A DNA stretch of 44,871 nucleotides from positions 1-44,871 of the forward strand of contig NZ_JAMQQG010000016.1 of NCBI RefSeq assembly GCF_023716925.1, written 5' to 3'. Position numbers and translations under genes: made by a program. Positions within the stretch are counted from its first letter, which is position 1; every line of letters starts with the position of its first letter. This document shows positions 29,698 to 42,240 of this stretch, in pieces. The notes under the pieces are model-generated. The model was not told where the DNA came from, ran no database searches, and was given only the letters and a program-made list of their open reading frames with translations. The DNA is from Frankia sp. R82. Its GTDB lineage: Bacteria > Actinomycetota > Actinomycetes > Frankiales > Frankiaceae.

Positions 29698-31563
29698 CTA
29701 GGAGGCCTGGAAGCGCAGCAGGGCGTAGTTCTCGTAGACCTTCGCTGGCAGGCCCTGCTTCATGACCTGGTCGGCGTGCGGGCGGGCCTGCGCGAGGGTG
29801 GTCTGCACCTCGGTGCACAGGTCCTCGTACGTGCGGTACGCCCCGGAACCGGCGAGGAACACGGTGTGCCCGGGACCGGCCTCGGCCAGAGCGCGCCGGG
29901 CGATCTCGCGTCCGTCGGCGTTTTCGTTGCGCTGCTCGTAGTCGACCCAGTCGACCCGGTCCGGCGGCGCGTACGTCGGCACGACGTACACCTTCAGCCA
30001 CGAGGGGACGGTGCGCGACAGGCCGGGACCGATCTGGTCGGGGCAGACGAGCATCACGTCGCCGGGACGGGCCAGCCGCTGCAGCACGTGGGCGGCCTCG
30101 GTGGCCTGCGAGCGCTCCCGGTGGACGTCCGAGGTGCCGGCCAGCAGGCCGATGGCCGCGGCGACGGCGATGACACCCTGGAAGATCCGCCGGTCGCCGA
30201 TGACCGTCGAGCCGAGGCCGAGCACGAGCAGGAACGGGACGAACGCGGTGGCGGTGTAGCGGTCGGCCCAGGCGTTGCCGACGAGCTTGCCGGCGGTGAC
30301 CGCGACGAACAGGGTGCCGGTGGCGAGGAAGAACAGGGTCCGGCCGGGTTCGCGTCCGCGCAGGTCGATGAGCAGGAACCGGCCGCCGGTGGACTGCCCG
30401 GCCAGGCCCGCGGCGGCCAGCCCGGTGACGAGGAACAGCAGCAGCCGGCCGAGGGTGGTCGGTCCGCCGGCCCACTGGCCGTAGGCGTGGGAGATCGCGG
30501 CGTAGCTCGCCGGCTCACCCCACGGCGTGCCGGTGTGGGCGAGCTGGTCGAAGAAGCTCGGCAGCCACGGGGCGAACACCAGGCCGCCGCCCACCAGGCC
30601 GATCAGCGCGTAGATCGGCCCGCGCCGGGCGGAGGCCACACCGGCCGACGCCGTGCCCGACGACGCACCACGTCCCCCTGACCGATGGCTACGCGCCCCG
30701 CCTGCGGGTCGCCCCACCGGTCCCACGCCTGCGGACGAGCCCAGGCCCGTACCCGCCGCCGTCGGCGAGCCCAGGCCGGTCCCGCCCCCGGTCGCGGGAT
30801 AGACCCTGATGCCCGCGCCGCCGAGTCCGTCGACACCGTCCGTGCCATCACCGGTTCCGGGAGCCTGACCGGTCGTCCCGCCGCGGCGGGCTCGTCGGGC
30901 CCGGTACCAGGGTCGCAGGAACAGCAGGCCGAGCAGCCATACACCGACGGTGACCAGCAGGTACAGACACCAGTAGTGGGTCAGGGCGAGGCAGCCGGCG
31001 GCCACCGCGAGCCCGATCACCGATTTCGCCGACGGGGCGCGCAGCACCCGTTCGAGGGCCACGCCACCGAGTGCGGTCAGCAGCACGATAAGGCTGTACA
31101 TCCGGGTCTCGGTGCCGAAGTACAGCGCGAACGGCGAGGTCAGATAGAGCACCACGCTGACCCGCGCGCCCCGCTCGCCGATCACCCGCTGCGCGACCAC
31201 GTACAGCGGCCAGGCCGCCAGAATGTTGATCACCGCGGACAGTGACCGTACGGCCAGGGTGCTCTCCCCGAACACGGAGATCCAGCCGTGCAGCAGCAGG
31301 TAGTACAGCGGCGGCGAACCGTCCTGGAGCAGGCCGTCCCACAGGGTGGTGCCGGCTCCGGACAGCGGCAGGCGGGCGATCGCCACGCTCTGCGCCTCGT
31401 CCAGCCACAGGGCCTGGGTGGCGGTGAACCGCACGATCACCGCGGCGGCGACGAGTGCGCCCACCACGATGGTGAACGCCCGCCCCGCGCGGCCGGATGC
31501 GTTGCCGACCTGGTCGACCGGTTCGGGCTTGTGCTCCGCCGGGCGCACCGCGACGTCCGTCAC
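29698..31563 (-). CDS. GT-C glycosyltransferase, ArnT/GT39-like (copy 1)
   Basis: A 621-aa membrane transferase. The first periplasmic loop carries ALWLDEAQSVAIARLPLSG (Asp-Glu about 55-56), the catalytic-type motif of PMT/ArnT enzymes, then DGSPPLYYLLLHGW and GTETRMYSLIVLL. After about ten spans a soluble C-terminal domain contains DVMLVCPDQIGPG. A Gly-rich linker of about 75 residues (GTTGQAPGTGDGTDG onwards) interrupts the middle. The GTG at 31563 has GGAAGG 7 bases upstream. It is clearly paralogous to the 38045-40069 gene. It likely adds a sugar from a polyprenyl carrier to an envelope glycan or lipid; donor and acceptor are unknown. Confidence 0.85.
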   Translation of the reverse strand: MTDVAVRPAEHKPEPVDQVGNASGRAGRAFTIVVGALVAAAVIVRFTATQALWLDEAQSVAIARLPLSGAGTTLWDGLLQDGSPPLYYLLLHGWISVFGESTLAVRSLSAVINILAAWPLYVVAQRVIGERGARVSVVLYLTSPFALYFGTETRMYSLIVLLTALGGVALERVLRAPSAKSVIGLAVAAGCLALTHYWCLYLLVTVGVWLLGLLFLRPWYRARRARRGGTTGQAPGTGDGTDGVDGLGGAGIRVYPATGGGTGLGSPTAAGTGLGSSAGVGPVGRPAGGARSHRSGGRGASSGTASAGVASARRGPIYALIGLVGGGLVFAPWLPSFFDQLAHTGTPWGEPASYAAISHAYGQWAGGPTTLGRLLLFLVTGLAAAGLAGQSTGGRFLLIDLRGREPGRTLFFLATGTLFVAVTAGKLVGNAWADRYTATAFVPFLLVLGLGSTVIGDRRIFQGVIAVAAAIGLLAGTSDVHRERSQATEAAHVLQRLARPGDVMLVCPDQIGPGLSRTVPSWLKVYVVPTYAPPDRVDWVDYEQRNENADGREIARRALAEAGPGHTVFLAGSGAYRTYEDLCTEVQTTLAQARPHADQVMKQGLPAKVYENYALLRFQAS

Positions 31564-31925
31564 GGCAGTTCCTTCCGTCCACGTGGTCCGCGGTGCGGGC
31601 GGGTCAGCCGGGTCGGCGTCTCGTCGACCGGCGGGCAGGGCCCGCACCCGCAGGGCTGGTTTCGTGCGGGCTGGTTTCGTGCGGCGGACCCACGCGCCCG
31701 GCGGGTCCGGACGGGTGCGGGGGTCAGGCCGCGGTTGCCGCCGGGCATGCGCCACCGACCGGCCGATGATGCGAAGATCACCAGCCGGCGGAGGACCACA
31801 CCCCGGCACCTAGTCTGGCGGTGCCCACCCACCCCGGCATGCCGGGAGGTGGACGCCGCCCACGTCTTGACGTGCTGACGGTCCGGTCGGCGCCGTCAGG
31901 TGTCGGCGCTGACCGGACGCCCGGG
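31564..31925. other. Intergenic region with 17-bp tandem
   Basis: It contains a GGGCTGGTTTCGTGCGG duplication (about 31655-31685), the hairpin CACGTC-TT-GACGTG (31861-31874) and the terminator-like hairpin at 31882-31917. The promoter of the GT39/PIG-V pair is expected here. No gene is seen. Confidence 0.45.
31882..31917 (-). terminator. Hairpin downstream of FAD-dependent oxidoreductase
   Basis: TCCGGTCGGCGCC and GGCGCTGACCGGA pair over 13 bp with one mismatch around a 10-base loop, starting 9 bases after the oxidoreductase stop. There is no T-run. Confidence 0.5.
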
Positions 31926-35274: not shown

Positions 35275-36192
35275 TCAGGTGGCGGCGTCGGCCTGCCTGC
35301 GGGCCCGCTCGCCGTAGAGGATGGCGGGCTCGAGCCCGTCCAGTGTCGGGATGCGCAGCGCGTACAGCTCCTCGCGCCCCACCCGCTCGGCCTGGGCGAC
35401 GATCTCATGCTCGTCGTAGTGGACGGAGAAGAACTTCCCGGACACCGCGTCGGCCCTGCCGGAGGCGAGGAACGTGGCCAGCTCCGCGGCGCGCTCCGGC
35501 GGGTACCAGCCCTTGTCCTCCAGCTCGTGGCCGGGCGGGAAGATCCAGGAGAAGGTGTCCGGTGGGTTTGCCGCGAGGGTGTCACGGATGGGCCACAGCG
35601 GGTCGGTCAGCTTGCTGAGCACATTGCCCGGCGTGATCGAGAAGACCGACACGCCGCGGCCTTCCAGCTCCAGGGCGAGCATTTCCGAGAAACGGATGAT
35701 CCCGGTCTTGGAGACGCCGTAGGGAACCAGGAACGGCATGCCGACCATGCCGGCGCCGCTGGCCACGTTGATGATGTGGCCGTGACCGGCCTCGAGCATG
35801 CCCGGCAGCACCAGGCGGCTGAGGTGGATCGCGGCGATCAGGTTCAGGTTCAGGCCCTTGACGATGGCCTCCGGATCCATCTTCTCGAACCTGCCCGACG
35901 TGCCGGGGACGCCGCCACCGGCGTTGTTCACCAGAATGGTCGGCGTACCGAACTCGGACGTCGTGAAGTCCAGCAGCGCCTGGACGGAGGGCAGGTCGGT
36001 CACGTTGGCCGTATGCGCCGCCGCCCGCCCGCCCGCGGCCCGGATGAGGGACGCCGTCTCCTCGATCTCGTCCGTCGAGCGGGCCGAGACCACGACGGCC
36101 GCGCCCTCCTCGGCGTAGCGCAGGGCGATGGCGCGGCCGATGCCGCGTCCGGCACCGGTGACAACGGCCACCTCACCAGCGAGCTGACTCAT
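35275..36192 (-). CDS. Short-chain dehydrogenase/reductase (cassette copy 1)
   Basis: A classical SDR of 305 aa. The cofactor motif TGAGRGIG is at 12-19, NNAG at 89-92 and the catalytic triad at Ser 145, Tyr 158 and Lys 162 (YGVSK). The C-terminus is unusually long for an SDR and has a conserved extension (FFSVHYDEHEIVAQAERV) shared with copy 2. The ATG at 36192 has AAAGGTG upstream; a longer open frame to 36363 is unconserved. It forms, with the EthD-domain gene and TetR copy 1, a cassette duplicated 5 kb away. The substrate is unknown. Confidence 0.92.
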   Translation of the reverse strand: MSQLAGEVAVVTGAGRGIGRAIALRYAEEGAAVVVSARSTDEIEETASLIRAAGGRAAAHTANVTDLPSVQALLDFTTSEFGTPTILVNNAGGGVPGTSGRFEKMDPEAIVKGLNLNLIAAIHLSRLVLPGMLEAGHGHIINVASGAGMVGMPFLVPYGVSKTGIIRFSEMLALELEGRGVSVFSITPGNVLSKLTDPLWPIRDTLAANPPDTFSWIFPPGHELEDKGWYPPERAAELATFLASGRADAVSGKFFSVHYDEHEIVAQAERVGREELYALRIPTLDGLEPAILYGERARRQADAAT

Positions 36193-36233
36193 CAGTCGAT
36201 CACCTTTCGTGATGTGAGTTCTGCCGGTGGAAT

Positions 36234-36251
36234 CGGGGATTCCGATCCCCG
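36234..36251. terminator. Hairpin between EthD-like gene and SDR copy 1
   Basis: CGGGGAT and ATCCCCG flank TCCG, a 7-bp perfect stem downstream of the EthD-like stop and upstream of the SDR start. It may reduce read-through or be an operator. Confidence 0.4.
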
Positions 36252-36325
36252 GCGGGCAGACCGTCGGCGACGGCTGCCAGGTTCTGTTTCCGCACCGCCG
36301 GGCACGCGCATCCGGATCGGCCGGG

Positions 36326-37099
36326 TCAGCCGGCGCCGGGCGGGCGGGACGACCGGAGGTCACGCAGCAGGTACTCGTCCATGACCGCGGCGACCGTCCG
36401 CGTGCCGTCGAGGAAGAGCCTGATGTCGTCGCCGATTGTGCTGGCGTTCTGCTGCCAGGTCGCCTCGGTCACGTCGCCGCCGAAGAAACGGGCCGGATCG
36501 AGAACGTCCTCGAGCGACGCGAAGCCCTCCTCGCTGAGCGCGTCGAACGGCTCGCCCTCGACCAGCGGACCGTCGGGTGTCGGCCGGCCCGTCGCCGGCA
36601 CGACGCGAGCGACCACGTTGCGGACGTAGGTGCGCGCCGGATGGATACGCAGGGACATCGGCTGGTGCACGTCGATCCAGTGCCGCACGAGCTGGTCGTG
36701 GGTCAGCGACGGCAACCGGTACAGCAGCGCGGCCACCGTGTGGCCTGGCTGCGGCCGGGTGGCGCTGACCGGCCGGGAGCCACCCCACCGGACGACGGCC
36801 TCCGTCACGACAGCGGCCACATGGTCCGGCCAGACGTCGGCGACGAGGGCGGCGACGTCCCCGGTGTCCTCGCCCGCCTCGACCCACACCGACAGCGCGG
36901 CGACGAAGCGACGGGTGACGGGCTCGCTCCGACGCTGCCACCGGTCGGTCGTCTCGCGGTCCTCGACCCGCACGGCGATCCCGGGGCAGCGGTCGGCGGG
37001 CAGCTCGCCCAGCAGCCGGTGGTTGAACTGCACGACGTCGGCAGGGCTGAGCGCGGGGATGTCCCCCGGCTGGTGGGCGACGAAGACGACCTTCTCCAT
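36326..37099 (-). CDS. EthD-domain (dimeric alpha-beta barrel) protein
   Basis: A 257-aa protein whose middle part (LPSLTHDQLVRHWIDVHQPMS, then LRIHPARTYVRNVVARVVPA) looks like an EthD-type dimeric alpha-beta barrel, with the usual His in the HW-x-D-x-H segment. The N-terminus (VQFNHRLLGELPADRCPGIAVRVED) recurs as a remnant near SDR copy 2. EthD proteins accompany oxidative pathways, with roles ranging from ether degradation to polyketide ring modification. The partner is presumably the adjacent SDR (inference). Ends 134 bp before the SDR start and starts 53 bp after the TetR stop. Confidence 0.72.
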   Translation of the reverse strand: MEKVVFVAHQPGDIPALSPADVVQFNHRLLGELPADRCPGIAVRVEDRETTDRWQRRSEPVTRRFVAALSVWVEAGEDTGDVAALVADVWPDHVAAVVTEAVVRWGGSRPVSATRPQPGHTVAALLYRLPSLTHDQLVRHWIDVHQPMSLRIHPARTYVRNVVARVVPATGRPTPDGPLVEGEPFDALSEEGFASLEDVLDPARFFGGDVTEATWQQNASTIGDDIRLFLDGTRTVAAVMDEYLLRDLRSSRPPGAG

Positions 37100-37152
37100 G
37101 GCGCTCCCTTGCGATATCGGTGTGGAACCCGGTCGGACGGGGCGGGGCGCCC

Positions 37153-37800
37153 CTAGCGCGCGGCCACCGGCCGGATCAGGGTCAGCGACGGCAGCAGGAG
37201 GTGATCGACGAATCCGGCGAGGTATTCGGGGGTGACCTGGATGCCTTCGAACAGGGCCCGGGCGGGCATCATGGCCATGAAGGCGAGCGGGCCGAAGTCG
37301 AGCGCCGGGTTGCCGGGTGCGATCTCGCCGCGTTGCACCGCGCGGTCGAGGATCTCGCGCAGGATGCCATGGAACGGGGCGAACAGCCGGCGGCGTAACG
37401 CGGCGCCGAGATCCGGATCGGTGTGGCAGGCGTGGGCGAGGCCGGCTAGCAGTGGTGCGTCGGTCGGGGCGACGTCACCGAGGACCGTGGTCATCGCCAT
37501 CAGATCGCCGCGCAGACTGCCGGTGTCGATGCGGGCGGGGGCGGGGTTGTCGTGGTGCAGGGCCTCGACGACGAGGTCGGCCTTGCCCTGCCACTGCCGG
37601 TACAGCGTGGCCTTGCTGACCCGGGATCGGGCGGCGATTCCGTCCATGGTCAGGCCGTCGTAGCCGAGTTCGATCAGTAGTTCGATCACGTCGGTGTAGA
37701 TCTCCCCGACCCGTTCGGCGCTCAGTCGTCGGCTGCCCGCCGGCCGGACCCGCGTCACCGCTGGCCCCGCGGGACGAGCCCCGCTGTCGCTGTCCGTCAT
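37153..37800 (-). CDS. TetR-family regulator (cassette copy 1)
   Basis: A 215-aa TetR-type repressor. The helix-turn-helix is at about residues 50-70 (LTMDGIAARSRVSKATLYRQW). The ligand domain includes DVAPTDAPLLAGLAHACHTD and GDLMAMTTVLGD. The ATG at 37800 has GGGGTGAG just upstream; upstream extension is possible but unconserved. The central 579 bp (37183-37761) are nearly identical to the second copy, with one mismatch (37695; Thr/Ala). The C-termini and extreme N-termini differ. It probably regulates the SDR/EthD cassette and itself through the ACGGTACCGT palindrome upstream (inference). Confidence 0.93.
   Translation of the reverse strand: MTDSDSGARPAGPAVTRVRPAGSRRLSAERVGEIYTDVIELLIELGYDGLTMDGIAARSRVSKATLYRQWQGKADLVVEALHHDNPAPARIDTGSLRGDLMAMTTVLGDVAPTDAPLLAGLAHACHTDPDLGAALRRRLFAPFHGILREILDRAVQRGEIAPGNPALDFGPLAFMAMMPARALFEGIQVTPEYLAGFVDHLLLPSLTLIRPVAAR
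37183..37761. repeat. 579-bp duplicated block, copy 1
   Basis: Identical to 41562-42140 at 578 of 579 positions by direct comparison (offset 4379). The only difference is T at 37695 against C at 42074. It covers most of the TetR coding sequence and breaks off abruptly at both ends. Confidence 0.95.
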
Positions 37801-37842
37801 GGTCTCACCCCTTCGTTCCACCGAACGTCGCTCGGGAACGAA

Positions 37843-37852
37843 ACGGTACCGT
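37843..37852. promoter_or_regulatory. Candidate TetR operator, copy 1
   Basis: The perfect palindrome ACGGTACCGT (inside GAAACGGTACCGTACC) lies 43 bp upstream of TetR copy 1. The paralogous gene has ACGGTACAGT in a similar place. Self-regulation is inference. Confidence 0.45.
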
Positions 37853-37941
37853 ACCAAAAGTGCACAGGGAAGAGGTGCGGTGGACTACGGAGGATCGACA
37901 CCTGCGCGATCCGGTCACCATTTCGCCACTCGACCACTCGA

Positions 37942-38002
37942 CCACTCGACCACCCGTTCACCCGATCGGGCCGAGCGGATGGGTGGGTGGGTGGTCGAGT
38001 GG
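37942..38002. terminator. Long inverted repeat between GT39 copy 2 and TetR copy 1
   Basis: CCACTCGACCACCC and GGGTGGTCGAGTGG are exact reverse complements (14 bp) around about 33 bases. The left arm is part of a CGACCACT tandem. It may end transcription from the GT39-like gene. Confidence 0.5.
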
Positions 38003-38044
38003 CCCGGGGCGGGACGACGTCGGGTGGCGCGCGGGTGGGGCTGC

Positions 38045-40069
38045 TCAGCGCAGGGTGGAGAAACGTTCCAGGGACGCGCCCTCGTACAGGTCGCGCTGGT
38101 AGACCTGCACAGTGCGGTCGCGCAGGGTGGCAAGCTGGTCGGAGAGCACCGCGCATGCGCCCTCGAGGAACCGGTAGCCGTCGGCGCGCACGAGCAGCAC
38201 AGCATGGTCGGGGCCGGCGAGCTCGTTGACCTCGGCGGCGAACGCCGTGCCGTTGGCATGGCGCATCCGGTCGGGGTAGTCGACCCAGTCCACGAGCGAG
38301 GGGCCCGAGGAGTCCGCGTAGACGATCTCGCGCACGGTCGGCGGGCCGTGTCGGCTCAGCGCCCGGTGCACCGCGGGGCCGAGCTGGTCGGGGCAGTAGG
38401 CGACGACGTCGCCGGGGCGGGCCAGCGCCACGATCCGTCCGGCGATCTCCCCGGCCTGGGTGCGTTCGGTGCGGGCCAGCTGCCAGCCGCCGATCAGCCC
38501 GCTGCCCACCGCCAGCACCAGCACGATCGCCCGCACTCTTGTCCCGGGCAGCACGGCGATGCCGAGTGAGGCGAGCATCAGGCAGGCCGGCAGCGCGATG
38601 CCGGTGTACCGCTCGGCGTACGCGCTGCCGCCGAACGCGTTCACGAAGTAGGCGAGCACCAGCGGTGCCAGCCAGATCGCCGCAAGATAGCGTCCCGGCA
38701 CCCGCCCGGTGACCCGAACCGCAAGCTCCCGACCGCCCGCGGGACGGGCGGTGAACCCGATCAGGGCCCCGCCGAGCAGCACCACGCCGAGCAGCGCTCC
38801 GGTGGACTGCGGCCCCGCCCAGTCGAACACCGTGTCCAGCAGCACCTGGGCCTGCACCTTGGGTGCCCACGGAGTACCGGTGTGCAGCATCTGGAAGGCG
38901 AACGACGGCATCCACGGCGCGAACAGGACGGCCGACGCCGCCATCGCCGCGAACGCCCGCAGCGTCACCCGCCGGTAGTACGGCCGCCGCCGGGCCTGCA
39001 GCAGCAGGAACGCCGCCACCGTGAAGATCAGCAGGAACGTCCAGTAGTGCGTGTAGACCAGCGCGGTCGTTGTAAGTGTGAGCTGCCCCAGCCGCGGCAG
39101 ACTCGACCGTTCCAGCGCCCGCACCGCGGTGAACCCGAACACCAGCACCAGCAGCACGACCAGCGAGTACATCCGCGTCTCGCTGCCGTACCGGATGGCG
39201 TAGGGAGAGCAGGAGAACAGCAGCAGCGTCGCGACGGCCACCCAGGTCGGCGCATCCGACCCGGCGTTGCCGGCACCGGACGCGATCCGCCCGACGCGGC
39301 GTCCGGCCAGCCAGGCCATCGGCAGAGTGAGCAGCGACAGCACGCCGGACAGCGCCCGCACGGCCACATCGCCGTCGCCGAACACCGCGATCCAGACATG
39401 CAGCAGCAGGTAGTACAACGGCGGTGAACCGTCGTGCCGCAGGGCGTGCAGCAGATCCGGGACGGGCAGCGAGGCGATCGCCACGGTCAGCGACTCGTCC
39501 AGCCACAGATGGCTCGGCGTCGCGAACCGCAGGACCGCGCCGACGGCCACGGCGAGTCCGACCGCCAGCATCAGGAGCGCGCGCGTATGCCCGCAGGCCA
39601 GCACCCACAACCGCCGCCAGCCCGGCCCGCCCCCCCCGACCCGTGTCTGGGTCTCGACCTGTGCCGGCGACTCGACCTGTGCCGGGGTCCCGACCTGTGC
39701 CGGGGTCCCGACCTGTGCCGGGGTCCCGACCTGTGCCGGCGACTCGGCCTCGGCGGGAAGCCCGCCGGCAGTGGCCGGCCCCGCGTGGCGGGACGATCCG
39801 GTGTCGCGGGACGGCGGGGCCGCGGGGACCAGCTCGGTGTGCTGGGTCAGCCCGGCGCTGGGGGCCAGCCTGGCGTCCGGGCCGGACTGGGCAACTTTCG
39901 GCTCGGACGACGAGCCATTGGTAGGTGGCGGGCTGCCACCGAAGGATGGCACTCTGCCCTCGAGAGGTTGAGCGCGGCCGGGTTCGCGGGGGCCGGGCAG
40001 CAGCGCCGGTCCCGGACCGGCCTCGCTGCTGTCCGCCGCTTCTGCATCCACGATGGGAACGCTACCCAT
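38045..40069 (-). CDS. GT-C glycosyltransferase, ArnT/GT39-like (copy 2)
   Basis: A 674-aa membrane transferase paralogous to the 29698-31563 gene: HLWLDESLTVAIASLPVPDL, DGSPPLYYLLLHVWIAVFG, RYGSETRMYSLVVLL and a C-terminal DVVAYCPDQLGPA domain line up in order. The first 140 residues are Pro/Ala/Ser-rich and unconserved and include five AQVGTP/AQVESP units from an 18-bp minisatellite (39644-39745). The ATG at 40069 has GAGAGG upstream. It faces no partner gene directly. It probably acts in the same envelope glycan pathway with a different acceptor or donor (inference). Confidence 0.83.
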   Translation of the reverse strand: MGSVPIVDAEAADSSEAGPGPALLPGPREPGRAQPLEGRVPSFGGSPPPTNGSSSEPKVAQSGPDARLAPSAGLTQHTELVPAAPPSRDTGSSRHAGPATAGGLPAEAESPAQVGTPAQVGTPAQVGTPAQVESPAQVETQTRVGGGGPGWRRLWVLACGHTRALLMLAVGLAVAVGAVLRFATPSHLWLDESLTVAIASLPVPDLLHALRHDGSPPLYYLLLHVWIAVFGDGDVAVRALSGVLSLLTLPMAWLAGRRVGRIASGAGNAGSDAPTWVAVATLLLFSCSPYAIRYGSETRMYSLVVLLVLVFGFTAVRALERSSLPRLGQLTLTTTALVYTHYWTFLLIFTVAAFLLLQARRRPYYRRVTLRAFAAMAASAVLFAPWMPSFAFQMLHTGTPWAPKVQAQVLLDTVFDWAGPQSTGALLGVVLLGGALIGFTARPAGGRELAVRVTGRVPGRYLAAIWLAPLVLAYFVNAFGGSAYAERYTGIALPACLMLASLGIAVLPGTRVRAIVLVLAVGSGLIGGWQLARTERTQAGEIAGRIVALARPGDVVAYCPDQLGPAVHRALSRHGPPTVREIVYADSSGPSLVDWVDYPDRMRHANGTAFAAEVNELAGPDHAVLLVRADGYRFLEGACAVLSDQLATLRDRTVQVYQRDLYEGASLERFSTLR
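39644..39745. repeat. 18-bp minisatellite in GT39-like copy 2
   Basis: Units of the type GGGGTCCCGACCTGTGCC repeat in frame, coding on the minus strand for AQVGTP and variants. It lies in the N-terminal cytoplasmic segment. Confidence 0.85.
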
Positions 40070-40280
40070 CCTCTCGCCGCACGATCTTGCCTCCTGCCCG
40101 GGGCGCGTACGCGCCCGGGGCAGGGCGCGCCAGCCGTGGCGACGTCGGCCTCGTCGCCGCACCCTCAGCTTGTCATCCGACGGTCACCGTACGGCCATCG
40201 GGCCGTCCCCGGCGACCCACCGTCTCAGACGGGGACACACCCCTGCCACATCAAGGGAGACAACATGGGCGACCTCTCGG

Positions 40281-41201
40281 TCAGCCGTTCCCGGCAGCCT
40301 CGTCCGGGCTGCTGGGCCTGCGGTAGTCGATGGACGGTTCCAGCCCGGTCAGGGTCGGGATGCGCAGGGCATACAGCTCCTCGCGTTCCACCCGCTCTGC
40401 CTGCGCGACGATCTCGTGCTCGTCGTAGTGGACGGAGAAGAACCGGCCGGTCGCCGCATCGGCCTTGCCGGAGGCGAGAAACAGGCACAGCTCGGCCGAC
40501 CGTTCCGCCGGATACCAGCCCTCGTCCTCCAGGGCATGCCCCGCGGGAAAGACCTTCGGGAAATCGGGCGGCGGGTTGTTGATGAGCTCGTCGCGGTGGG
40601 GCCACATGGGCTGGGTCAGCTTGCTGAGCACATTGCCGGGCGTGATCGAAAAGACGGAGATGTTGTGTTCCTGCAGTTCCAGGGCAAGCATTTCGGAGAA
40701 CCGAATGAGGCCCGTCTTCGAAACGCCGTAAGGCACCTGGTAGGCCATGCCGATCATGCCGGCTCCGCTGGCCACGTTGATGATCCGTCCCTGCCCGGCC
40801 TCGAGCATGTCGGGCAGCACCAGACGGCTGGCGTAGATCGGGGTGAGCAGGTTCAGGTTGACCCCGCGCAGGATGCCCTCGGGTTCCAGCAGGCTGAACC
40901 GACCCGATGTGCCACGGCCACCACCACCGGCGTTGTTCACCAGCAGGGTGATCGGGCCGAACTCGGACCGGGCGAAATCCAGAACGTCCCTGAGTGCGTC
41001 CAGGTCGGTCACGTCGGCCTGGCGGGCTGCCGCCCGGCCGCCGGCGGCCCGGATCAGGGCGACCGTCTCCTCGATCTCCGCGATGTGGCGGGCGGTGACC
41101 ACGACCGCCGCCCCCTCTTCGGCGAACCGCAGCGCGATCGCGCGTCCGATGTTGCGGCCACCACCGGTGACGACGGCGACCTGACCTGCGAGCTGACTCA
41201 T
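40281..41201 (-). CDS. Short-chain dehydrogenase/reductase (cassette copy 2)
   Basis: A 306-aa SDR about 70% identical by eye to copy 1, including the long C-terminal extension (FFSVHYDEHEIVAQAERV). NNAG and the YGVSK active site are kept, but the cofactor loop reads TGGGRNIG, with Asn replacing the central glycine of TGxxxGIG. The EthD gene that follows copy 1 is here reduced to a remnant between this gene and TetR copy 2. The start is an ATG at 41201. Cofactor preference or activity may differ from copy 1 (inference). Confidence 0.9.
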   Translation of the reverse strand: MSQLAGQVAVVTGGGRNIGRAIALRFAEEGAAVVVTARHIAEIEETVALIRAAGGRAAARQADVTDLDALRDVLDFARSEFGPITLLVNNAGGGGRGTSGRFSLLEPEGILRGVNLNLLTPIYASRLVLPDMLEAGQGRIINVASGAGMIGMAYQVPYGVSKTGLIRFSEMLALELQEHNISVFSITPGNVLSKLTQPMWPHRDELINNPPPDFPKVFPAGHALEDEGWYPAERSAELCLFLASGKADAATGRFFSVHYDEHEIVAQAERVEREELYALRIPTLTGLEPSIDYRRPSSPDEAAGNG

Positions 41202-41225
41202 GAGCTGGTCACCCTTCTGACCTGT

Positions 41226-41315
41226 GTGTTGTTGACGGACCCAGGGGGTCCGAGACGGTGGTCAGCGTCGTCGGGCGTTCGTTCGGCGTGTTGTTGACGG
41301 ACCCGGGGGGTCCGA
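41226..41315. repeat. 28-bp direct repeat pair near the EthD remnant
   Basis: GTGTTGTTGACGGACCC followed by a GGGGGTCCGA half occurs at 41226-41253 and 41288-41315 with one mismatch. Each unit holds a GGACCC/GGGTCC palindrome. The pair lies in the region where the EthD gene would continue toward its 3' end. Confidence 0.75.
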
Positions 41316-41341
41316 ACCTCGGGAGGACGGCGCGTCGGCGA

Positions 41342-41443
41342 CGCCTGCCGGCGGTCCTCGACCTGCAGCGTGATCCCGGGATACCGCTCGGCGGCAAGCT
41401 CGCCGAGCAGGCGGTGGTTGGGGCGCACGACGGCGGACAACGG
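41342..41443 (-). pseudogene. Remnant of EthD-domain gene
   Basis: The segment NHRLLGELAAERYPGITLQVED matches NHRLLGELPADRCPGIAVRVED of the intact gene at 36326-37099, about 34 residues in all. The rest of the domain, including the HWIDVH part, is absent and replaced by short repeats. A 104-aa frame through it is unlikely to make a folded protein. Confidence 0.75.
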
Positions 41444-41462
41444 CGTTCGGTGAGCGGGCCGG

Positions 41463-42179
41463 CTACGAGGCACCGGGCGGCGTACCGTCTGCGACCGCCG
41501 ACGATCGGACATCCGACGGCGACACGTCTGACGACGGCGACATCGTCGGTGGTGATCCGACCAGCGACGGCAGCAGGAGGTGATCGACGAATCCGGCGAG
41601 GTATTCGGGGGTGACCTGGATGCCTTCGAACAGGGCCCGGGCGGGCATCATGGCCATGAAGGCGAGCGGGCCGAAGTCGAGCGCCGGGTTGCCGGGTGCG
41701 ATCTCGCCGCGTTGCACCGCGCGGTCGAGGATCTCGCGCAGGATGCCATGGAACGGGGCGAACAGCCGGCGGCGTAACGCGGCGCCGAGATCCGGATCGG
41801 TGTGGCAGGCGTGGGCGAGGCCGGCTAGCAGTGGTGCGTCGGTCGGGGCGACGTCACCGAGGACCGTGGTCATCGCCATCAGATCGCCGCGCAGACTGCC
41901 GGTGTCGATGCGGGCGGGGGCGGGGTTGTCGTGGTGCAGGGCCTCGACGACGAGGTCGGCCTTGCCCTGCCACTGCCGGTACAGCGTGGCCTTGCTGACC
42001 CGGGATCGGGCGGCGATTCCGTCCATGGTCAGGCCGTCGTAGCCGAGTTCGATCAGTAGTTCGATCACGTCGGCGTAGATCTCCCCGACCCGTTCGGCGC
42101 TCAGTCGTCGGCTGCCCGCCGGCCGGACCCGCGTCACCGCCGAGCCCTCAGGTCGAGCCCCGTCACCACCGTCTGCCAC
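41463..42179 (-). CDS. TetR-family regulator (cassette copy 2)
   Basis: A 238-aa TetR protein with the same helix-turn-helix and ligand domain as copy 1, almost unchanged (Ala for Thr in GEIYADVIEL). The C-terminus differs: the copy 1 end (LTLIRPVAAR) is replaced by a 30-residue Ser/Pro/Asp-rich tail. The start is a GTG at 42179 with GGGGTGAG upstream, in the same relative place as the copy 1 ATG. It should recognise nearly the same DNA as copy 1, so cross-regulation of both cassettes is likely (inference). Confidence 0.92.
   Translation of the reverse strand: MADGGDGARPEGSAVTRVRPAGSRRLSAERVGEIYADVIELLIELGYDGLTMDGIAARSRVSKATLYRQWQGKADLVVEALHHDNPAPARIDTGSLRGDLMAMTTVLGDVAPTDAPLLAGLAHACHTDPDLGAALRRRLFAPFHGILREILDRAVQRGEIAPGNPALDFGPLAFMAMMPARALFEGIQVTPEYLAGFVDHLLLPSLVGSPPTMSPSSDVSPSDVRSSAVADGTPPGAS
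41562..42140. repeat. 579-bp duplicated block, copy 2
   Basis: Partner of 37183-37761, one mismatch. The flanks diverge at once on both sides, into SSDVSPSD-type coding on the 3' side and a different N-terminal segment on the 5' side. Confidence 0.95.
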
Positions 42180-42230
42180 GGCCTCACCCCACCGTCATCG
42201 TCGTCACCGCCATCATCGCCCAGGAACGGA

Positions 42231-42240
42231 ACGGTACAGT
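42231..42240. promoter_or_regulatory. Candidate TetR operator, copy 2
   Basis: ACGGTACAGT, one mismatch from the perfect palindrome upstream of copy 1, within GGAACGGTACAGTTTCG. It lies 52 bp upstream of the TetR copy 2 start. Confidence 0.4.

Follow-up and report, generated by a model that had tools for sequence, protein, structure and literature searches.

Organization of the duplicated TetR locus

Frankia sp. R82 is a root-nodule bacterium. The stretch of its DNA considered here (44,871 nt of contig NZ_JAMQQG010000016.1, hereafter the window) contains two cassettes that share the gene content TetR, EthD, and SDR (Table 1). In cassette A, the regulator gene tetR-A is followed downstream by an intact EthD gene and then by an SDR gene; downstream of tetR-B, cassette B has only an EthD remnant and a second SDR gene. 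Both regulators belong to the TetR family by domain content, with PF00440 and PF16859 scoring above the Pfam cut-off in each of them. An earlier sequence-only reading of this DNA had described the linked SDRs as about 70% identical and EthD as intact in one cassette and eroded in the other, and both descriptions agree with the alignments. The SDRs share 73% identity over 296 residues of protein and 76.3% of DNA (dS 0.58), and the EthD protein of 257 aa in cassette A corresponds to a remnant of 86 bases in cassette B.

Table 1. Features of the two cassettes and of the TetR blocks in the window
Feature	Position	Strand	Description
Cassette spans	A 35275-37800; B 40281-42179		Gene content TetR, EthD, SDR
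SDR oxidoreductase, cassette A	35275..36192	-	305 aa; 93.3% DNA identity to F. nodulisporulans orthologue
EthD-domain protein, cassette A, intact	36326..37099	-	257 aa; Pfam EthD
TetR-A gene	37153..37800	-	215 aa; TetR_N + TetR_C_11
Block in TetR-A, very probably converted	37183..37761	-	Codons 14-206 of 215; HTH and nearly the whole C-terminal domain
Conserved promoter element upstream of TetR-A, candidate operator	37835..37849	-	GTACCGTTTCGTTCC
705-aa ORF separating the cassettes	38045..40162	-	
SDR oxidoreductase, cassette B	40281..41201	-	306 aa; 93.0% DNA identity to F. nodulisporulans orthologue
EthD remnant, cassette B	41351..41436	-	86 bases, 80% identical
TetR-B gene	41463..42179	-	238 aa; GTG start; C-terminal tail unlike that of TetR-A
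Matching block in TetR-B, probable donor	41562..42140	-	89.5% to F. nodulisporulans B orthologue, 84.1% to its A copy
Sole mismatch between the blocks	37695 (T) vs 42074 (C)	+ (letters)	1 amino-acid difference between the TetRs over codons 14-206
Same conserved promoter element upstream of TetR-B	42223..42237	-	GTACCGTTCCGTTCC

The ORF that separates the cassettes has no Pfam or NCBIfam match at an E-value of 0.001. In a permissive blastn search, it matches weakly a region located approximately 8 kb upstream (29749-31762 versus 38087-39885, 59-63% DNA identity in pieces), which is possibly a distant homologue. Tandem arrays are found upstream of tetR-A (37926-37953, 8-base unit CCACTCGA, 3.5 copies) and within the separating ORF (39635-39739, 18-base unit, 5.8 copies); the alignment to the relative used for comparison, Candidatus Frankia nodulisporulans AgTrS, breaks near the latter. 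A 26-base hairpin-like sequence, GTTGTTGACGGACCC-N-GGGGGTCCGA, is present in two direct copies adjoining the EthD remnant (41228-41253 and 41290-41315). With up to three mismatches allowed, these are its only sites in the R82 genome and none occurs in F. nodulisporulans, in which a 57-base stretch aligns to the repeat region (41284-41340) at 82%. The erosion of EthD in cassette B may be connected with these copies.

The near-identical block

Base-by-base comparison bears out the earlier claim that the two TetR genes are identical at 578 of 579 positions (37183-37761 versus 41562-42140), and the match can be extended at neither end. The longest exact run reaches 512 bases in this pair, as against 27 between the window SDR genes and 32 between the TetR copies of F. 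nodulisporulans, so the identity of the block is not a matter of chance. Synonymous differences between the blocks are absent (0 in 156.7 sites). At the sole mismatch, TetR-A carries the base of the A copy of F. nodulisporulans and TetR-B that of the B copy. Both ends of the block had been described as sharp, and this holds for position 37761, where the block passes into an N-terminal stretch that is homologous between A and B but diverged. At 37183, by contrast, the C-terminal tails of A and B simply cease to be homologous, in both species; the sharpness of the ends is thus in part a consequence of where homology stops.

Comparison with the sister species

The published draft of R82 (6.89 Mb, 370 contigs) places it nearest to F. 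nodulisporulans and two related strains, at 86% ANI (PMC9670867); the assembly containing the window has 6,895,298 bases in 370 contigs. The strains Ag45/Mut15 and AgPM24 share 97% ANI with AgTrS (PMC9194555). The TetR block was detected at E ≤ 1e-30 in two of the 13 genomes of the genus, R82 and F. nodulisporulans, with two copies in each, and a protein search found the TetR pair in two of the 35 genomes of the family, again these two. The comparison of the locus thus rests on a single relative carrying both cassettes. Its contig C134 (letter-for-letter NZ_CADCWS010000134.1) preserves the order of the window, with tetR-A reaching the contig end, followed by the intervening gene, the SDR gene of cassette B, tetR-B, and the gene beyond. 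The SDR and EthD genes of cassette A are located on another contig, C364, which is not joined to C134 in that assembly. Since both cassettes are present in F. nodulisporulans, their duplication is older than the species split. The EthD gene on C364 (reverse complement 53-827) is found in two frames (tblastn pieces 53-511 and 351-818) and looks frameshifted, through either decay or sequencing error.

Identity within the block is 99.8% between the window copies, whereas the two copies of F. nodulisporulans match at 483 of 579 positions (83.4%). Orthologous copies match at 518 positions (89.5%) for TetR-B and at 488 (84.3%) for TetR-A. For the SDR genes, DNA identity is 93.3% (A) and 93.0% (B) between orthologues and 76-78% between paralogues. 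Of the 96 block sites that distinguish the TetR copies of F. nodulisporulans, 95 carry one and the same base in both window copies (59 of B type, 29 of A type, and 7 other), and at the remaining one each window copy retains its own type. In the SDR genes, each window copy matches its own orthologue at 137 of the 198 sites where the F. nodulisporulans copies differ.

The trees repeat this pattern. The TetR block tree joins the two window copies (support 99/99), and the grouping of window TetR-A with its F. nodulisporulans counterpart is rejected (p-AU 0.003). The SDR tree recovers the orthologous pairs (100/99 and 100/100) and rejects a grouping of the two window copies (p-AU 2e-50). The A and B pairs of SDRs group together against three other Frankia SDRs (91/92, not starred), as predicted by a local duplication. 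Taken at the level of sequence, these comparisons show that the TetR copies were homogenised after the species split. The check proposed in the sequence-only reading, i.e., base-by-base alignment, silent sites, and a related strain, gave gene conversion as its result.

Timing and direction

By the rule of three, the absence of synonymous differences sets a ceiling near 0.02 on the silent divergence of the window TetR pair. Between orthologues, dS is 0.15 and 0.24 in the SDR genes, and 0.22 in TetR-B within the block. On these silent-site estimates, and if the assembly is exact, the conversion is recent, roughly nine-tenths or more of the interval since the split having passed before it took place. 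In F. nodulisporulans, the A and B copies have a dS of 0.28 for TetR (95% bootstrap interval 0.19-0.39) versus 0.45 for SDR (0.35-0.57), and the TetR value was the lower in 99% of 1000 bootstraps. This hints that the TetR genes were also homogenised earlier, so that more than one event possibly took place, although unequal silent rates could give the same pattern. For homogenisation in several species, the earlier event suggested by this dS pattern is a hint, the pair being present in only two of the 35 family genomes.

With TetR-B of the window as the third sequence, the numbers of unique sites are 60 for the A copy of F. nodulisporulans, 29 for its B copy, and 25 for the window (p = 0.0013 and 0.0002). 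The F. nodulisporulans A copy is thus the long branch among the three, and under a clock the window block groups with B, which would make TetR-A the recipient. In a tree rooted with three distant TetR outgroups, the best topology weakly places the window block with the A copy (68/76), and its placement with the B copy is not rejected (p-AU 0.227). We consider it likely that copying proceeded from TetR-B to TetR-A, a direction favored by the distances although not confirmed by the rooted tree. Along the block, the A-type (29) and B-type (59) sites show some clustering (31 runs versus 40 expected, p 0.017). A mosaic of two donors is not claimed on this clustering.

Probable gene conversion and alternative explanations

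The locus very probably reflects an old duplication that gave rise to A and B, followed by a recent gene conversion between the TetR genes in the R82 lineage. The molecular route, like the direction, is inferred. An old local duplication would have produced two TetR-EthD-SDR cassettes in the common ancestor with F. nodulisporulans, after which the copies would have diverged and EthD of cassette B decayed. Later, in the lineage of the window, one TetR gene would have suffered a break or gap and been repaired by recombination, with the other TetR gene as template, and the non-reciprocal copying of approximately 580 bp would have left the regulators nearly identical over codons 14-206.

MutS_V had no match in the R82 genome (95% complete), whereas 11 of the 14 control genomes matched; NucS is present in R82 and matched in 7 of the 14. 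A study of Mycobacterium smegmatis reports that recombination at 85% identity is low but measurable with NucS and about fivefold more frequent without it (PMC5290159), so break repair templated by a TetR gene is possible at about such divergence. Template-directed repair between copies of this kind may therefore have been feasible, though NucS would make it rare. The A-type base retained in TetR-A could stem from a later point mutation restoring it, with a chance of about 4% (transitions weighted 4:1, our own choice). Its restoration by NucS in a short patch is not favored: the A/B transitions three bases to either side are of B type in the window, and collateral repair by NucS is reported at three nucleotides (PMC11551744). 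The neighboring B-type sites may instead reflect changes private to the A copy of F. nodulisporulans.

A single recent duplication had been judged a poor fit in the sequence-only reading, and a wholly recent origin of the cassettes is rejected here, since both copies occur in F. nodulisporulans and the window SDRs are only 76% identical. The same reading preferred gene conversion, in agreement with the contrast between sister TetR copies at 83.4% and window copies at 99.8% with no synonymous difference. It also offered selection for identical regulators as an alternative. Purifying selection that had kept an old duplicate identical is hardly credible: TetR-A and TetR-B do have in common a promoter element that, with up to one mismatch allowed, occurs nowhere else in the genome, but selection on the protein does not equalize silent sites, all of which (approximately 157) are identical here. 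Moreover, F. nodulisporulans tolerates 83.4% TetR identity, and the flanking parts of the same two genes have diverged. Selection as the sole cause is thus refuted, and selection for identity is neither supported here nor needed for the result.

An assembly artefact, in which the interior of TetR-A was filled with TetR-B sequence or true differences were collapsed by a short-read assembler, is unlikely, although the R82 draft was indeed built with SPAdes 3.13 from 2x150 Illumina reads, deposited as SRX17215055 (PMC9670867). SPAdes collapses alternative paths, termed bulges (PMC6736328); single differences inside the block could therefore have been lost, and one difference in 579 may overstate the identity. 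The surviving mismatch is located 66 bases from a block end, closer than the default k, and would be protected by the unique flanks; a random site is expected this near an end about one-fourth of the time by our own arithmetic. The default k of SPAdes is 77. Diverged A and B copies like those of F. nodulisporulans, however, share no exact run longer than 32 bases and would not merge in the assembly graph, so that an A-type copy 16% diverged is hardly likely to have been erased. No third, orphan copy of A type was found elsewhere in the R82 assembly, and TetR-A keeps its A-type base, which a pasted B copy would do only by chance (about 4%). In addition, library fragments of about 1000 nt (PMC9670867) are long enough to bridge the 512 bases that the two copies share. 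Replacement of TetR-A by homologous recombination with a B-like gene of another cell would have a similar outcome in sequence, such that one genome cannot separate it from internal conversion. It is nonetheless very improbable, for the incoming DNA must have been nearly equal to the resident TetR-B and must have stopped where the homology of A and B ends, within one gene. An internal template accounts directly for both features.

Promoter element and regulators

In R82 and F. nodulisporulans alike, the element GTACCGTTYCGTTCC is located upstream of each of the two TetR genes. Each genome has these two sites at up to one mismatch and none elsewhere, whereas the backwards control pattern gave no sites in R82 and one in F. 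nodulisporulans. The element is possibly an operator, a candidacy based on conservation and rarity only. Its dyad symmetry (7 of 10) is no evidence for this role, since shuffled 150-base upstream regions often reach 7 (in 121, 136, 151, and 217 of 300 trials), and the operator dyad was rejected.

Between TetR-A and TetR-B of F. nodulisporulans, 4 of 19 residues differ in what we take to be the region of the recognition helix (residues 58-76, our own choice), as do 29 residues out of the 109 that make up the C-terminal domain. The window regulators show no differences in either region (0/19 and 0/109). In F. nodulisporulans, two signals may reach one type of operator through divergent TetRs and the common element. 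Rather speculatively, the conversion in R82 could have reset a diverging pair of sensors, and the TetR rather than the SDR, its presumed target, might be homogenised repeatedly in this lineage, coupling operons with diverging enzymes. If each TetR controls its own cassette, operons once able to answer different ligands are predicted to have a single sensor now.

Relation to known systems

Gene conversion is a well-known mechanism; the TetR pair of R82 adds a clear further instance of it and does not constitute a novel type. For tufA and tufB of Salmonella, which undergo gene conversion, the average walk length is about 500 nt to either side (PMC5485169). The TetR case probably resembles it in that sequence is copied non-reciprocally from one chromosomal paralogue to another, up to the ends of homology. 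The tuf copies, however, were nearly identical from the outset, whereas the TetR templates were probably about 80-85% identical and have diverged neighbors. Recurrent concerted evolution has been described for 26 prokaryotic genes (PMC6053082), in which, as here, paralogues are closer within a species than to their orthologues. For TetR, by contrast, one species of the two shows homogenisation, which does not establish recurrence, and no TetR-type regulator is among the 19 bacterial genes listed in that study. Among the matches listed in literature searches on gene conversion of regulators or TetR, no title or beginning of an abstract reported the R82 locus or TetR conversion. In the Frankia literature, "gene conversion" is absent from the main text of a paper on Alnus-infective strains (PMC9956245) and occurs only within a reference title in the available text of another (PMC3729583).

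The locus offers a clean example from nature in which paralogues that had clearly diverged underwent ectopic gene conversion, in an actinobacterium without detected MutS. With the pre-conversion state preserved in the sister species, an ordinary copying process is seen with unusual clarity. It illustrates how a single member of a duplicated operon can be reset while the remainder diverges, and that identity within a genome, taken alone, misdates a duplication.

Outside the family, five TetR relatives (44-53% identity) were found in named genomes. No EthD match was detected in the stretches surrounding them, two of which (L034 and L036) reach only about 400 bases past the TetR gene on one side, and the sole SDR in two others (L037 and L038) is a distant one (32-34%), located about 3 kb from the TetR gene. 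Pairs of SDR and EthD genes at most 2 kb apart occur in two further Frankia genomes, G003 and G007 (protein identity to cassette A of 75-82% for SDR and 55-61% for EthD); neither the 9 kb around each pair nor a genome-wide search at E ≤ 1e-30 yielded a match to TetR. These two genomes have almost identical SDRs in their SDR-EthD regions (L054, 4.9-5.8 kb, and L055, 3.6-4.5 kb; branch lengths 0 and 0.001), and G007 also has another, different SDR-EthD copy (L053).
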